Shown: in pieces, positions 2,882 through 23,828 of the stretch
How positions within the stretch are numbered: the first letter of the stretch is position 1
How the letters are laid out: every line of letters starts with the position of its first letter
NCBI RefSeq assembly: GCF_004300825.1
Contig: NZ_CP036250.1
Location: 2,987,001-3,051,000 of the forward strand
From: Egicoccus halophilus
GTDB lineage: Bacteria > Actinomycetota > Nitriliruptoria > Nitriliruptorales > Nitriliruptoraceae
Length of the DNA: 64,000 bases
Direction of reading: 5' to 3'
Made by a program: the position numbers and the translations under genes
The notes under the pieces: generated by a model
Seen by the model: the letters and a program-made list of their open reading frames with translations, nothing else
What the model was told of the DNA's origin: nothing
The model's database searches: none

Positions 2882-4144
2882 TCACGACCGCTCGTCGGAC
2901 GCGGTGAGCTCGTCGAGTTCTCGGCGGGCGGCGGCGAGGTCGTCCTCGTAGTCGGCGAGATCCGTACGCGCGGCCTCGACCTCGGCATGGGCCGCCTCGG
3001 CCTGCGTCCGCAGCTCGTCCGCTCGCTCCTGCGCCCGCTGCACGCGGTCGCGTTGCTGGTCGAGCGCCACCTCGAACGCGTCGATCCGGCGCTGCAGGCG
3101 CCGTCGCCGGGCGGCCTGACGCGCTTCGTCGTCGGCCGCGCGTGCTGCGTCCTCGGCCCGGCGTCGTTCCTCCTCGACCCGGCGGGCCTCGTCCTGCCGG
3201 CGCTGTGCCTCCGCGGCCGCCGAACGGGCCTCCTCCTCGGCCTGACGTTGCTGCTCCTCGACCCGGCGGGCCTCGTCCTGCCGGCGCTGTGCCTCCGCGG
3301 CCACCGAACGGGCCTCCTCCTCCTCTCGACGCGCGGCCTCCTCCCGACGCTGCTGCTCCTCGGCCGTGCGGTCCTCCTCGAGCTCGCGTTCGCGCTTGGC
3401 CGCGGCGCGGCGGGCGTCCTCGGCCGCGTCGGCCACCGCCTGTGCGGCTGCTGCGGCCTCGGCGGCGTCGGCCAGGCCGTCGGCGGTCTCCTCGAGCGGG
3501 TCCCGCACGCCCGCCTCGTCCCTGTCCCGGGCCGTGACGTCACCGACCGCCTCGTCGGCATCGGCGCCGGCATCGGTGTCGGCATCGGTGTCGGTGTCGG
3601 GCGCCGGTGGGTCCGGCAGCGCGGCGAGGCCGAATCCCAGGCCACCGAAGCCGAGGCCGTCGAACCCGGGGCCCGGCAGCACGGTCGAGAAGATGCCCCG
3701 CCGGAGCAGGTCATGCCGTTCCGGGTCGACCGCGGCGGCGAACAGGGTCTGCTCGACCTCGTCGAGGTGGGCGTCGGGTCTGGTCCCGGCCGCGGCCAGC
3801 AGCTCGGCGGCCCGCTCCCGCAACTCCCCCACGAGCTCACGGACGCGGCGGTTCGCCTCGCGCAGCCCCTGCGCGCCGCGTCCGCTCGCGGCCCGGTGCT
3901 GTGCCGAGCGCAGTTCCTCGGCCGCGTCCAGCAGGTGCTCGACCTCGTCGGGTGCCGCGCGCACGAGCTGGTCGACGGCCCACGCCGGCACGGTCGGCTT
4001 GCGGTGCTGCTTGAGGGCGGCCGCCTCCTGCTTGTACCCCTCCGCCCGCAGCGCCTTCACCCGCCGATCCCGCTCGGCGGTGAAGGCGTCCAGGGCGAGA
4101 CCGTGGATCGCGTCGACGTGCGACGCGAGCACCTGCTCGTCCAT
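2882..4144 (-). CDS. Coiled-coil protein encoded next to Ku
   Basis: 420 residues, cytoplasmic. The N-terminal 60 residues carry the pattern [16 protein letters not shown]...[13 protein letters not shown], which recurs in actinobacterial proteins of unknown function. About residues 60-160 are helical with repeated [10 protein letters not shown]-type heptads. A Gly/Asp-rich linker with tandem DTDAD-like steps covers about 165-215. Residues 215-410 form a long charged coiled coil rich in EEARR and [12 protein letters not shown] repeats, with a partly duplicated block. The start lies 15 bp after the stop of the Ku gene on the same strand, so the two are probably co-transcribed. A structural or scaffolding role in end joining is only suggested by context. 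Confidence 0.7.
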
Positions 4145-18217: not shown

Positions 18218-18254
18218 GACCGGCACGCTAGTCCCCCGGGCGACCGAGGGAGCC

Positions 18255-18288
18255 GGGAGCGCCGGACCTGGCTCGGTCCGGCGCTCCC
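18255..18288 (-). terminator. Strong hairpin terminator of the CHAT-sigma operon
   Basis: A perfect 14-bp stem, GGGAGCGCCGGACC and GGTCCGGCGCTCCC, with loop TGGCTC. It lies about 210 bp downstream of the last gene of the minus-strand module and 38 bp before the LigD-polymerase start. It marks the end of the CHAT-sigma-small protein transcription unit. Confidence 0.75.
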
Positions 18289-18496
18289 GCCGATCGATGC
18301 GATCGGCCGCCCCCGGTCCGGTCTGCCCCCAGTCCGGACCGCCCCCAGGATGGTGCGCGTGCGAGTGGCCCGAACCGCCGGTCCCCACGGCGGCCCCTGT
18401 CGGGCACCTCACGTGGAGGAACCGCAACCGTGGGCGGTGATACCACCCCGCCGGATCCGTGCGATGACCGCTCACCGATCCACGAAAGGCGCTCGC

Positions 18497-19000
18497 TCAG
18501 ACCGTGACCCACGCGGTCTCGACGGCCTGCCCCAGGTGCGGCCAGGCACACCGCAGGCTCAGCGGCCCGGGCTCGACCTCCAGGGTGAAGCGTCCGAGGT
18601 CGTCGGTCTGTGCGGTCCGCTCCCCCGCGGGTTGACGGATGGTGAGCTGTGCCGTCGCCGAGGGCAGGCACTGACCGACCAGGCGGCGGCGGGGGCCGGT
18701 GACCTCGATCTCGAGCTCCACCTCGGCGATCCCGGCCGCGAAGCTCAGCTGCCGGACGCGACCGTGCGCCCCGCCGCGCACCCCGACGGGCTCGGCCTCC
18801 ACCGCCGAGTCGTGCACGAGCTCGGCCAGGGCCGCGTCCAGCCGCAACCAGGCCAACGACGAACGGGCCGCCAGCACGGCCTCCGGCGGCACGGGATCGA
18901 ACTGCGCCGCCAGATCGGTGAGCTCGGCGAGCAGCAGTTCGTCCAGGTCGTCGGCGGCAACGTCCGGCGGGACGTCCCCAGGCAGTCGATTCTCGTCCAC
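18497..19000 (-). CDS. Small helical plus beta-sandwich protein of the CHAT-sigma module
   Basis: 167 residues, no signal peptide or membrane segment. The N-terminal about 65 residues are acidic and helical (DLDELLLAELTDLAAQFDPVPPEAVLAARSSLAWLRLDAALAELVHDS). Residues about 75-165 form alternating beta strands (RQLSFAAGIAEVELEIEV; RFTLEVEPGPLSLRC), resembling a carboxypeptidase-regulatory/transthyretin-like sandwich. I recall similar proteins beside sigma and CHAT genes in other actinobacteria, but I have no searched evidence. GTG 19000 follows GCAGGAGG, 13 bp after the sigma stop. By position it could be an anti-sigma factor or protease substrate; this is inference. Confidence 0.75.
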   Translation of the reverse strand: MDENRLPGDVPPDVAADDLDELLLAELTDLAAQFDPVPPEAVLAARSSLAWLRLDAALAELVHDSAVEAEPVGVRGGAHGRVRQLSFAAGIAEVELEIEVTGPRRRLVGQCLPSATAQLTIRQPAGERTAQTDDLGRFTLEVEPGPLSLRCAWPHLGQAVETAWVTV

Positions 19001-19013
19001 GGCGTCCTCCTGC

Positions 19014-19589
19014 CTACCCGGAGTACCGGGTCGAGGGCGTGATACCCCGTGTGCGCAGGTGCTCGCGCAACTGGCCCAGACAGCGTCCGCGGGTGGGGCC
19101 GATGCTGCCGATGGGCATGTCCAACGCCGCACCGACCTCCTCGTAGCTCGGTGTCGGGTCCGCCATCAGCAGCCGCAGCAGACCGCGGCACCGTTCCCCG
19201 AGCTGGTCGAAGGCCGCCCAGACGACGGCGCGCTGCTCGTCGCCGAGCAGGCCGGCGTCGCTGGCGGGCCGGGACTCGTCGGCCAGGTCGAGTTCGTCCG
19301 CGGCGACCGGCCGGGTGCGGTCCGCGGCCCGCAGCAGGCGCAGCGACTCGTGCCGCGCGGTCGTGGCCAACCATCCCCCCACGGCCCGCGGGTCCCGTAG
19401 TCGGTCGAGGTGCTCGACCAGCCGCAGCCAGGTGGTCTGGAACACGTCCTGCGCGTCGGCGTCGCCCAGACGGTGCGCGCGGACCACGGCCCAGACCAGG
19501 CCGGAGTAGCGCGCCACGAGTTCGTCGAAGGCGTCCTGGTCACCGGCCGCCGCGGAACGGACCAGCACCTCGACCGCCGCACGGTCCAT
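19014..19589 (-). CDS. ECF sigma factor of the CHAT module
   Basis: 191 residues. Region 2 spans about residues 15-88, with YSGLVWAVVRAHRLGDADAQDVFQTTWLRL and the -10 recognition segment GGWLATTARHESLRLLR. Region 4 spans about 125-178 (LGERCRGLLRLLM; YEEVGAALDMPIGSIGPTRGRCL). The promoter it reads is unknown. ATG 19589 is chosen as the family start; upstream codons to 19661 lack sigma features. It lies between the CHAT gene (104 bp upstream) and the small 18497-19000 protein (13 bp downstream). No classical zinc-binding anti-sigma protein with HxxxCxxC is present. Confidence 0.93.
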   Translation of the reverse strand: MDRAAVEVLVRSAAAGDQDAFDELVARYSGLVWAVVRAHRLGDADAQDVFQTTWLRLVEHLDRLRDPRAVGGWLATTARHESLRLLRAADRTRPVAADELDLADESRPASDAGLLGDEQRAVVWAAFDQLGERCRGLLRLLMADPTPSYEEVGAALDMPIGSIGPTRGRCLGQLREHLRTRGITPSTRYSG

Positions 19590-19693
19590 CGTGTCCGTCC
19601 TGTCCGGCGTCGAACTGGCCGACGACCGACCGTCGCCAGGGCCTCCGACGCTAGCAAGCACACGCGTCGGGGCCGCAGGCGTCGCGATCCCGC

Positions 19694-22357
19694 TCAGACG
19701 CCACCGCCGTCGCCGAGGACGACGAAGGCGTGCCGCACCGCGCGGTGCGCCGGCTCGGCGTCGTCGGCCGCTTCGATCGACGCGGCCAGGGCCGAGGCCG
19801 CCGTGGTGCCGTTCGCGAGCCGACGGTGCAGGTCGACCATCAGCGCCACCGCCGCCGTGTCGGGGATCTCGAGCACCGGTGCGATCAACGTGCCGACCCC
19901 CAGGCGCAGCAGCGCGCTGCCCAGTCCCAGCACGGCGTCACCGGCGACGGTCGCCGTGGTGGCCGCGTCACAGCTCGACAGCACCAGCGTGCGCGGGACG
20001 GCGGACAGCTTCTCGAGGTCGTAGACGTTGAGCGCCCCGTCGGCCAGGCGCAGGCAGGAGAACAGCGGGTTGTCGGTGCGATAGACGCCGTGCGCGGCGA
20101 CGTGGGCCGTCGTCGCGTCCGCCAGCGCCGCGCCGACCGCGGCCACGGTGGCGTGGGGACCGGTGAGCGCCGTCGTCGCCGGGTGCTCGACCGCCAGGGC
20201 CGCGACCTCCGCGTCGGCGCCGGGCAACTCGGGGCCGGCGACCAGCAGGTCGGGCGTCCCGGGCCTCGCGCAGCCGTCGGTCGCGGCCAGCCAGGCCGCC
20301 GCCGAGGGCACGACCGTCGGCACCGACCGCCCGATCGTCAGCGTCGACCAGGGCAGCCCGTCGAGGGCGCCACACGGCACGATCACGAGCGGCGCGTCGA
20401 GCCGGTCGAGACCGAGCCGTCCGGCGAGGTCCCGGGCCGAGCGGGCCACCGACGCGTCCGCGGCGGCCATGGACGCGGCGCTGGCCCGCCCGCGCGCCAA
20501 CCGTCGTACCGCCGAGCGCATCAGCGCCACGGCGTCGCGGACCTCGGCGGCGGGGCCGAGCACGCGATGGCGGACGCCGGACGGATGCACGGTCAGCTGG
20601 TGCAGGCGTGCGTCGAGTTCGGCGTAGGCGACCAGGACTCGTCCGTCGAGCGTCTGCCGCAGCCGGTCCACGTCGAGCGTCGCGTCGGCCGGCTGCGCAA
20701 CCGACGCGACGGCGTGCCGGTCGACGGCGTGGCTGGTGGTCCGGGCCCGGTCGCGCACGCGCCGCTCCGCACGGGCACGAGCCTCGCGGTACGGACGCGG
20801 GTCACCGCCGCCGCGCGCGGCGTCCCGTTCGGCCCTCTCGAGCCGCCGCAGCTCGGCCAGGAGGTCGGCGAGTACGGGGTCCCCGGGCGGCCGGGGCGCA
20901 ACCGCCACGTCGGCGGCCCGGACCCGGTCCAGGGCACACAGCGCCCGATCGGGGCGGCCGTCCTCGAGTGCCAGCCGGACGCCGAGACGGACCAGGTCGA
21001 CGGTGTGGCGGGCGGCGTGGGCCCGCAGCTCGGCCGAACCGAAGGTGAGCCGCGAGCGGTGCAGCACGTCCACCCCGCGCGCGACGGCGAGCTCGGCGTC
21101 GGCGCGCCGTCCGGACGCGGCCTGCACGAGTGCCGTCGCGTAGCAGTGCTGCGCCCGGGCCAGGGCGGGCAGGTCCCCGTCGACGTCGTCGGTCAGGACG
21201 TCGTCGAGCACGCGACCGGCGAGCGCCGGATCGCCTGCCCGCAGCGCCTGCTCGGCCACCAACAGGCGGGCCGACCGGGCCTCGAGGTGCCATCCGCCGG
21301 CCTGGAGGTCGTCGGCGAGCGCAGCAGCGGTCGACACCTCGACGTGGCCCTCGGCCGCCGAAGCCGCGGCCAGGGTGACGTAGCGCGCCTGCAGCTCCCA
21401 GCCGTCGCGTCGTGCCGCACGGAACGCCCCGCCAGCCCGGCGCGCGTGGTCCGCCGCCGCCGTGTGGTGGTGTGCCAACAGCAGCGTGCGCGCCAGCTGC
21501 AGCTCGGCCTCGGCAGCGTTGGTGCGGTCGTCGCCGGCGGCGAGGACCTCGGCCGCGTCGGCGGCGACCTCCAGCGCCTCCTCGAGCAGGCCGGCGTCGG
21601 CGAGCACGTCGGCGCGGTCGAGGGCGATGCAGGCGCGCATGGCCGAGGTGGCGAACTGCTCGTCGTCGAGCAGGTCCTGGGCCTGTTCGAGCAGCGCCAG
21701 GGCGGGCGGGATCTCGCCGCGTCGCGCGGCGACGAAGGCCAGGTTCTGCAGGGCGATCGCGATGCCCGGGGTGGTGCCGAGCTCGCGTGCCAGGGCCAGC
21801 GAGCGCCGCAGGTCGCCCGCCGCCGCCGTCAGGTCGCCCAGGTAGGCGTGCACCACGCCCCGGTTGCCGAGCAGGCGTGCCTCGGCCGCGACGTCGTCGG
21901 CTTCGCGCAGGATCGGTAGTGCCCGGCCGTAGGCGTCGACGGCCTCGTCGAGGCGGCCGAGTCGCTGCAGCAGCAGCCCGCGCTGCATCTCGTTGCGGGC
22001 CGCGTCGGGGCCGGTGAGGTGCTCGGCGGCGAGGGCGGTCGTCGCCAGGGCGGCCTCGGTCTCGCCGAGGTGGAGCAGCACCAGCGCCAGGCTGGAGCGC
22101 ACGAGCGCGGCGGTGCCGAGCGCGCCGAGCCGCTGCGCCCCCTGGGCGGCGGCGTCCAGCTCGCGGCGGGCACCGGGCAGGTCCCCGAGCTCACGCAGGG
22201 CCGCCCCCAGGGCCCAGCGGACCGCGACCGTGCGCGCGTCGTCGCCGGCGGCGTCGCTGAACAGCTCCGCCGCGTCGCGGCGGAACCCCACCGGGTCGGC
22301 GAGCGCGACGTCGACCAGGTCGCGGAAGGCCGTGTCGGCCGCATGCAGCGTCCCCAT
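19694..22357 (-). CDS. TPR-CHAT protease
   Basis: 887 residues, cytoplasmic. About residues 20-480 are tandem helical repeats of TPR type (for example GDLPGARRELDAAAQGAQRLG; GRLDEAVDAYGRALPILREA). About 500-600 is a linker rich in Arg and Ala. The CHAT (caspase-like) domain is at about 620-887, with catalytic His756 in HVAAHGVYRTDNPLFSCL and Cys796 in LVLSSCDAATT, 40 residues apart as expected. TPR-CHAT proteins are proteases whose sensor repeats or partners control cleavage. It is the first gene of a minus-strand unit with an ECF sigma factor and a small protein, and is divergent from an S8 protease gene 70 bp away. A -10-like TACTCT lies 6 nt before ATG 22357, suggesting a leaderless mRNA. 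Confidence 0.92.
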   Translation of the reverse strand: MGTLHAADTAFRDLVDVALADPVGFRRDAAELFSDAAGDDARTVAVRWALGAALRELGDLPGARRELDAAAQGAQRLGALGTAALVRSSLALVLLHLGETEAALATTALAAEHLTGPDAARNEMQRGLLLQRLGRLDEAVDAYGRALPILREADDVAAEARLLGNRGVVHAYLGDLTAAAGDLRRSLALARELGTTPGIAIALQNLAFVAARRGEIPPALALLEQAQDLLDDEQFATSAMRACIALDRADVLADAGLLEEALEVAADAAEVLAAGDDRTNAAEAELQLARTLLLAHHHTAAADHARRAGGAFRAARRDGWELQARYVTLAAASAAEGHVEVSTAAALADDLQAGGWHLEARSARLLVAEQALRAGDPALAGRVLDDVLTDDVDGDLPALARAQHCYATALVQAASGRRADAELAVARGVDVLHRSRLTFGSAELRAHAARHTVDLVRLGVRLALEDGRPDRALCALDRVRAADVAVAPRPPGDPVLADLLAELRRLERAERDAARGGGDPRPYREARARAERRVRDRARTTSHAVDRHAVASVAQPADATLDVDRLRQTLDGRVLVAYAELDARLHQLTVHPSGVRHRVLGPAAEVRDAVALMRSAVRRLARGRASAASMAAADASVARSARDLAGRLGLDRLDAPLVIVPCGALDGLPWSTLTIGRSVPTVVPSAAAWLAATDGCARPGTPDLLVAGPELPGADAEVAALAVEHPATTALTGPHATVAAVGAALADATTAHVAAHGVYRTDNPLFSCLRLADGALNVYDLEKLSAVPRTLVLSSCDAATTATVAGDAVLGLGSALLRLGVGTLIAPVLEIPDTAAVALMVDLHRRLANGTTAASALAASIEAADDAEPAHRAVRHAFVVLGDGGGV

Positions 22358-22427
22358 GCTGGCAGAGTAGGGGTTCGGGTCGGGGGCCGGCACAGGATCG
22401 GGGGCCGGCACGACATCAGGAGCGAGC
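22358..22427. promoter_or_regulatory. Divergent control region between CHAT and S8 protease genes
   Basis: 70 bp separating two divergent starts. On the minus strand TACTCT (complement of 22364-22369) ends 6 nt before the CHAT ATG. Two identical 14-bp direct repeats, TCGGGGGCCGGCAC, lie at 22380-22393 and 22398-22411, an 18-bp period. CAGGAGCGAGC just before ATG 22428 serves as ribosome binding site for the S8 gene. The repeats could be a regulator or sigma-factor site shared by both genes. Confidence 0.5.
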
Positions 22428-23828
22428 ATGACCGACGGCGACGGACCGGGAACGAGCGACGACGACGGCGTGGTGTCGCTCGCGCGGGAGTTCGCCGAGC
22501 GCGGCATCGAGTTGGCCGGCGGCCGGAACCCCTTCGCCTACCGCCGGGGGCAGGTGCTGCTGCGCGCCTCGGACGTCCGCGCCGCGGACCGCAGTCCCGC
22601 CTTCCGCCGGGCCCGGGAGGTGCGTGACGCCGAACCGCTGGCGGCCTGCGACGGGGAGGTGGTGTGCGTCCACGTGCAGGCGGCGAAGGACGCCTCCGGC
22701 GAGTTGCGCTCGCGCGGCGTGCTTGCGCACCTCAACCACGTGCTGTTCACCGCGAACGGACCGGGACTGACCGCCAACCCCGGCTACCAGGGCAACCCCG
22801 GGTACCAGGGCAACCCCGGCTACCAGGGCAACCCCGGGTACCAGGGCAACCCCGGCTACCAGGGCAACCCCGGGTACCAGGGCAATCCGGGAGGCAGGCC
22901 GTTGGCGTCGACGGCGACGCCGGCCACGCCGTTGCCGGCCTGGGAGCGGCTCGGCGACGGCGGCGGACCGCGGATCGCGGTGCTCGACACCGGCCTGCAG
23001 ACCGACGGCGAGCACGACGGGGCACACGAGGTGGCCGGGACGACCCGCACCGTCCGGCACGCCGCGTTGCGCGAGCACGTGCCGCTGCCCGAGCGGTGGC
23101 GGATGACGCCGCTCGCCGACGACCTGCGTTGCGACGAGGACCACGCCGACGAGAACGACGACGGCTTCCTCGACCGGGCCGCCGGTCACGGCACGTTCAT
23201 CGCGGGGATCGCCGCCCGGCTCGTGCCGGGCGCCGAGGTCCGGTGCGAGGGGGCGATGTCGTCGTTCGGGGACGGCGACGACGCCACCCTCGCGGCCGCG
23301 CTCGGTGAGATCTTCGACCGGGGACGTCCCTGCCTGGTGAACCTGTCCTTCGGCGGCTACAGCGAGCACGACGAGGTGCCGCTGGCCATGGAGGCCATCC
23401 TGCGGCGCCACGTGCGACGCCACGACGAGACCGTGCTGGTCGCCTCGGCGGGCAACGACGCCACCTGCCGGCCGAGCTGGCCGGCCGCCTTCGCCGACGT
23501 CATCGCGGTCGCGGCGCTGCAGCCCGGCGGACTTCCGGCCGGGTTCACCAACTGGGGCCACTGGGTCGACGCCTGCGCACCCGGCGTCGACGTGACCAGC
23601 ACGTTCCTGTACCACGACGGCGTCGAGGTGGCCGGGACGGTCGCCGAGCACTTCACGGGCTGGGCGACCTGGTCGGGGACCTCGTTCGCGGCGCCGAAGG
23701 TCGCCGCGGCCATCGCGCGGGACATGGTGGTCACCGGCGCGTCCCCCCGCGAAGCGGCCCACCGGGTCGTGCGGGCGCACGGGCTGTACCGGCTGCCCAA
23801 CCTCGGGACGGTCGTGAACCTGGTGTGA
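22428..23828 (+). CDS. Cytoplasmic-type S8 (subtilisin-like) serine protease with NPGYQG repeats
   Basis: 466 residues. An N-terminal about 110-residue domain (NPFAYRRGQVLLRASD... LAHLNHVLFTANG) precedes six perfect NPGYQG hexapeptides (residues 117-152). The S8 domain then runs to the end. The catalytic set is complete: Asp187 in IAVLDTGL, His254 in GHGTFIAG, Asn343 in VASAGND and Ser419 in WSGTSFAAPK. No signal peptide, membrane segment or cell-wall anchor is visible, so it is probably intracellular, unusual for subtilases. It is divergent from the TPR-CHAT gene with only 70 bp between. A two-protease signalling or suicide pathway is an attractive but untested reading. Confidence 0.92.
   Translation: MTDGDGPGTSDDDGVVSLAREFAERGIELAGGRNPFAYRRGQVLLRASDVRAADRSPAFRRAREVRDAEPLAACDGEVVCVHVQAAKDASGELRSRGVLAHLNHVLFTANGPGLTANPGYQGNPGYQGNPGYQGNPGYQGNPGYQGNPGYQGNPGGRPLASTATPATPLPAWERLGDGGGPRIAVLDTGLQTDGEHDGAHEVAGTTRTVRHAALREHVPLPERWRMTPLADDLRCDEDHADENDDGFLDRAAGHGTFIAGIAARLVPGAEVRCEGAMSSFGDGDDATLAAALGEIFDRGRPCLVNLSFGGYSEHDEVPLAMEAILRRHVRRHDETVLVASAGNDATCRPSWPAAFADVIAVAALQPGGLPAGFTNWGHWVDACAPGVDVTSTFLYHDGVEVAGTVAEHFTGWATWSGTSFAAPKVAAAIARDMVVTGASPREAAHRVVRAHGLYRLPNLGTVVNLV
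22776..22883 (+). repeat. Six in-frame 18-bp repeats encoding NPGYQG
   Basis: Six 18-bp units encode NPGYQG, followed by a partial NPGG. The third codon alternates GGC/GGG strictly from unit to unit, so at DNA level it is a 36-bp unit repeated three times. This suggests expansion by duplication of a two-hexapeptide block and possible copy-number variation between strains. Confidence 0.95.

Follow-up and report, generated by a model that had tools for sequence, protein, structure and literature searches.

The question raised by this locus, which lies in a 64,000-nucleotide stretch of Egicoccus halophilus DNA (the window), is whether four neighboring genes encoding a small protein, an ECF sigma factor, a TPR-CHAT protease, and an S8 (subtilisin-like) protease act together, and in what arrangement. 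All four open reading frames described in a first-pass annotation of the window are present and intact. The small protein gene (18497..19000, 167 aa, GTG start), the sigma factor gene (19014..19589, 191 aa), whose region 4 bears the family motif SIGPTRxRCL, and the TPR-CHAT gene (19694..22357, 887 aa) lie on the minus strand; the S8 gene (22428..23828, 466 aa) is divergent on the plus strand, with 70 bp between its start codon and that of CHAT. Pfam searches on the window matched CHAT (8.2e-24) and TPR_12 (5.6e-17) in the TPR-CHAT protein, Sigma70_r2 (5e-13) in the sigma factor, and Peptidase_S8 (3e-20) in the S8 protein. As annotated, both catalytic sites are complete: His756 and Cys796 of CHAT are unchanged in 34 of 34 aligned homologs, and Asp187, His254, Asn343, and Ser419 of S8 in 24 of 24. 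The window S8 carries no visible signal peptide, in agreement with the earlier reading that it has no export signal. A GC-rich hairpin on the minus strand (about 18254..18289, z = -3.9), located ~210 bp beyond the small protein stop codon, is a candidate terminator of the minus-strand unit; it had been noted before, but its stem measures 15 bp rather than 14 bp. Between the small gene and this hairpin, a 16-bp unit (CCGCCCCCAGTCCGGA) is repeated 2.6 times at positions 18307-18348. At the other end of the unit, alignment with two related loci (L022 and L023) highlights a -10-like box, TACTCT (22364..22369, minus strand), directly before the CHAT ATG. This box is a candidate leaderless housekeeping promoter for CHAT, distinct from the GTATCA promoter described below.

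The quartet is a real, conserved, and functionally coherent signaling module. CHAT homologs occur in 14 of 41 genomes, counting the window's own, and among the genomes of the class searched for both markers, 12 contain CHAT and the small protein, one the small protein alone, none CHAT alone, and 15 neither. A search of 296 genomes of the phylum with the small protein returned 38 positives. Reading the neighborhoods of the CHAT and small protein matches revealed sigma, small, CHAT, and S8 genes together in ~25 loci of the phylum, in many gene orders; no further gene family is conserved in most of these loci. The first-pass proposal depended on these neighbors being conserved together, and they recur across both class and phylum. 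The ~25 loci take in six genomes that we call Streptomyces-like (genus g49, a label resting on gene content and size), a group in which the system is patchy and absent from five of 11 members. Three other genomes (G039, G281, and G299), all fragmented assemblies, have sigma and/or small with CHAT not found. A contig scan with the full-length CHAT protein yielded one distant relative only. One of the loci, L002, comes from Acidobacteria, and downstream of the module in L029 (genome G006) lie a fluoride riboswitch and an M-box riboswitch, at 2018-2081 and 3747-3930.

The gene association itself is not new, as it has been published for sigma factor group ECF54: a 2022 review places CHAT, subtilase, and "carboxypeptidase" genes around ECF54 and proposes proteolytic control (PMC8999054, citing Huang 2015 and Casas-Pastor 2021). 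CHAT and subtilase genes are likewise conserved around the sigma gene here. Our ECF54-type label is accordingly a contextual one, the sigma factor itself having matched general ECF models only. The promoter, a division into two sub-modules, arrays in the S8 proteins, and extra targets in Streptomyces-like genomes are new here.

The promoter is the firmest of these results. The motif TGTATCA-N16-[CG]TC, learned from the CHAT-S8 spacers of Streptomyces-like genomes, stands ahead of the S8-sigma-small operon in six of six of them and was then tested on the other loci. These contain 69 GTATCA sites, followed by CTC at a spacing of 16 in 31 cases and of 17 in 13 (44 together); CTC occurs nine times at spacing 19 and zero to four times at nearly all remaining spacings. 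GTATCA-N16/17-CTC has the form of an ECF promoter, as judged from its sequence. It is found upstream of S8 in 14 of 34 cases, sigma in 11 of 42, small in 8 of 44, and CHAT in 0 of 39. Genome-wide, it is rare, with three to five sites each in G000, G003, and G010, one or two of which fall within the system. Judged by this co-occurrence, the sigma factor of the quartet very probably uses the GTATCA promoter to switch on its own partners. Loci with a divergent sigma (L065 and L067-L071) keep SIGPTRxRCL and lack the motif. In literature other than the primary classification papers, we found no promoter, inhibitor, or signal described for ECF54.

In the window, the predicted promoter (GTATCA-N16-CTC, 19021..19045, minus strand; chance expectation 0.08 per window) lies inside the 3′ end of the sigma gene, 20 bp upstream of the start codon of small. 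L022, L023, and L029 have a promoter at the matching place, and in all four loci the glycine at this site is encoded by GGT, which accounts for 10-17% of the glycine codons in these genes. The S8 genes of the window group have no GTATCA promoter. Downstream of the small gene is a degenerate copy, GTATCA-N16-TTC (18419..18443, minus strand), at whose place three relatives carry a perfect GTATCA-N16-CTC followed by a hairpin. A small RNA downstream of the window's small gene was considered and rejected, given the degenerate promoter copy and five observed G-runs against 3.0 expected; this stretch has no Rfam match. We likewise set aside a wider regulon in the window genome, where two of the three promoter matches fall outside the system and are not convincingly placed.

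Further putative targets appear in other lineages. In four Streptomyces-like genomes, a LuxR-type regulator with an AAA/STAND ATPase domain beside CHAT carries the GTATCA promoter (L056 353-2173, plus strand; equivalents in L057, L058, and L060). All six system-positive Streptomyces-like genomes also have the motif before an intergenic stretch that ends in a GC hairpin (L088, L086, L097, L096, L083, and L103 in G062, G207, G154, G243, G289, and G307, respectively). About 150 bases after the motif, this stretch contains a G-rich unit of four to nine ACGGGG repeats in five genomes and two in G307. No such unit was found among the motif matches of the five system-negative Streptomyces-like genomes, and Rfam gave no match to it; the non-coding unit is a candidate small RNA. 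Adjacent to the system, putative targets encode a Nal1/trypsin-like protease (L033), an exported Calx-beta protein (L024), and a phosphotransferase-like protein (L028), and more distant motif sites precede genes for UDG-like, Gmad2-LysM, and Ig-domain proteins.

How the four proteins pair is indicated by gene linkage and co-variation. The small gene adjoins sigma in nearly all loci. In G027, G028, and G036, sigma and small lie far from CHAT and S8 or on other contigs, and G032 has both arrangements. When protein distances are compared over 20 loci, the partial correlation is 0.61 for small-sigma (bootstrap 0.40-0.75) and 0.64 for CHAT-S8 (bootstrap 0.31-0.80), intervals that are wide, and the remaining pairs give 0.13-0.25 with intervals crossing zero. 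Since joint inheritance of adjacent genes yields the same pattern, these values support the pairing and leave physical contact unproven. The comparisons thus support a module made of two sub-modules, sigma with small and CHAT with S8. In L031 and L032, CHAT and S8 are each present twice and small two or three times, next to a single sigma gene; because the extra small copies stand beside extra CHAT-S8 genes, the small protein may also serve the proteases.

AlphaFold2 predicts the small protein, at good confidence (pLDDT 88), as two helices (residues 16-34 and 39-50) followed by an Ig-like β-sandwich (57-167). CarboxypepD_reg matched 11 of 37 small homologs weakly, with a best value of 1.9e-7; this part of the protein is a regulatory-like Ig domain and no peptidase. 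Its CarboxypepD_reg-like Ig fold makes the small protein most likely the published ECF54 "carboxypeptidase." Sequence and structure searches of the PDB returned generic Ig-like folds only, and detected no similarity to known anti-sigma domains. Kinship with Csx30 was considered and not adopted on the same searches, where absence is no exclusion. Adjacency to and co-variation with sigma mark the small protein as a putative sigma partner or inhibitor.

The S8 model is confident in parts only (mean pLDDT 65). It places a folded, prodomain-like N-domain at ~16-108, with propeptide-like predicted secondary structure, before a disordered segment (110-177) and the subtilisin catalytic domain; fold searches with the model retrieved subtilisins, several as pro-forms. 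Between the two domains, in the region predicted to be disordered, an 18-bp tandem repeat (22775..22885, plus strand) encodes (NPGYQG)x6. Like the promoter at 19045-19021, this array (22775-22885) is absent from the first-pass annotation. It occurs nowhere else in the window genome, which rules out a match to another protein encoded there. In all, 13 S8 genes encode nearly perfect tandem arrays, each between N-domain and catalytic domain, with units that vary by lineage in an otherwise constant position and style: NPGYQG in the window, and elsewhere NPAYQG, NPAYQA, HPFWVG, HPFWGG, HPMYDG/HPLYDG, GPFTSG, NPFTRS, NPYGTRT, GYGDGV, and TPYPGG. The units of the two S8 paralogs differ in L031 and L032. 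Exported-looking S8 proteins have no array, nor do some cytoplasmic ones. Signal peptides, identified by eye and in one case Tat-like, are present on the S8 proteins of L034, L036, L042, L062, and L067-L070, so that in those loci S8 provides no cytoplasmic link. The array may serve as a hinge for cleavage, as a tag for binding, or as a segment that promotes condensation.

We favor, at a probability of about one half, an ECF54-type proteolytic cascade, pieced together from sequence comparisons, in which CHAT senses a signal, the small protein is inactivated, and the freed sigma factor amplifies its own operon. CHAT, expressed from its own promoter, would serve as a cytoplasmic sensor protease whose TPR part takes the signal and activates the caspase-like domain. 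The small helical/Ig protein would normally bind the ECF sigma factor and keep it inactive, until CHAT, alone or via S8, inactivates the small protein, presumably by cleavage. S8 may itself be released or activated at the disordered hexapeptide-array hinge. Freed sigma would then bind GTATCA-N16/17-CTC and transcribe S8, sigma, and/or small, along with lineage-specific targets, an output that would combine positive feedback with re-synthesis of the inhibitor. Because conservation in most loci is limited to these four genes, control of sigma is most simply sought within the quartet. Weighing against the cascade are the missing resemblance of small to known anti-sigma domains in our searches, the extra small copies beside the proteases in L031 and L032, the exported-looking S8 proteins, and the three genomes with sigma and/or small in which CHAT was not found. 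The first-pass annotation had proposed a CRISPR-independent signaling module in which CHAT cleaves the small protein or S8 to free sigma or trigger proteolysis. Conserved linkage upholds its core, an ECF sigma tied to an intact TPR-CHAT and S8; the wiring needs redrawing, given that the evidence pairs small with sigma and CHAT with S8, and that S8 itself often stands behind the sigma promoter.

That last arrangement also fits a reading in which S8 is an output: CHAT alone, or another signal, would act on small and sigma, and S8 would be an effector made once sigma is on. The sigma promoter on 14 of 34 S8 genes, the exported S8 proteins of several lineages, and the Nal1/trypsin-like protease of L033 as another adjacent target all suit this view, which we regard as possible yet somewhat unlikely, since CHAT and S8 stay together where sigma and small are elsewhere, co-vary most strongly, and in the window group include an S8 without the promoter. 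Improbable, in our estimate, is the proposal made for ECF54 (PMC8999054) that the proteases hold sigma off by degrading it, with no anti-sigma factor and the small protein as an adaptor. It counts the "carboxypeptidase" as proteolytic, whereas that gene, if correctly equated with small, encodes an Ig-like domain and no peptidase, and small tracks sigma most closely. An immune role, as a Craspase-like device that is independent of CRISPR and triggered by phage, would match the patchy distribution among Streptomyces-like genomes and the analogy to Csx29/Csx30/sigma and CalpL/CalpT/CalpS. The earlier suggestion of defense nevertheless finds no support: PADLOC called no system and gave weak, generic TPR, BovA, and subtilase matches only, the window neighbors look like housekeeping genes, and no CRISPR part or mobile context is seen, which makes this role very improbable. 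Conserved linkage, co-occurrence, and promoter placement refute a chance adjacency of unrelated genes, to which we give practically no weight. Our preferred cascade could be extended into a CRISPR-independent caspase-to-subtilisin relay in which the lineage-specific arrays act as an activation hinge or assembly tag of S8 and the sigma regulon takes in its own proteases as well as, in Streptomyces-like genomes, a G-rich, multi-repeat decoy small RNA; this extension is speculative, and we consider it doubtful.

If the cascade is correct, caspase-like control of transcription extends beyond CRISPR to a widespread actinobacterial family. With the GTATCA-N16/17-CTC element, the ECF54 group can be tested by means of a simple reporter; the pairing of sigma with small and of CHAT with S8 sets priorities for purifying complexes, and the hexapeptide array points to a place where S8 may be controlled.

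Among known systems, the closest context is that of ECF54, which shares an actinobacterial ECF sigma that lacks a classical anti-sigma factor and is flanked by CHAT, subtilase, and a CarboxypepD_reg-like protein; the literature provides the association and the proteolysis proposal, and the present analysis adds the promoter, the division into two parts, the array, and the targets. Type III-E Craspase (Csx29 TPR-CHAT, Csx30, and CASP-sigma; PMC10028731) also groups a TPR-CHAT protease and an ECF sigma with the gene of a small regulator, and the window CHAT has the catalytic His/Cys of the Craspase TPR-CHAT. It differs in that the window has an added S8 and a 167-aa, Ig-like small protein whose detected resemblance to solved proteins is limited to Ig folds, and in that gRAMP/Cas7-11 and crRNA were not seen in the window in the first-pass annotation. 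CalpL-CalpT-CalpS (PMC11417357) combines a type III CRISPR Lon protease, an anti-sigma, and an ECF sigma; its Lon/SAVED sensor is driven by cyclic nucleotides, and it has neither CHAT nor S8. EACC2-caspase-TRADD-N (PMC8195603), as far as the accessible text describes it, unites a caspase-like protease, an ECF sigma, and a TPR protein in one bacterial neighborhood, with other adaptor domains and no S8 or small Ig protein in that description. By analogy, and with no kinship claimed, the quartet may work like Csx29-Csx30-sigma and CalpL-CalpT-CalpS.
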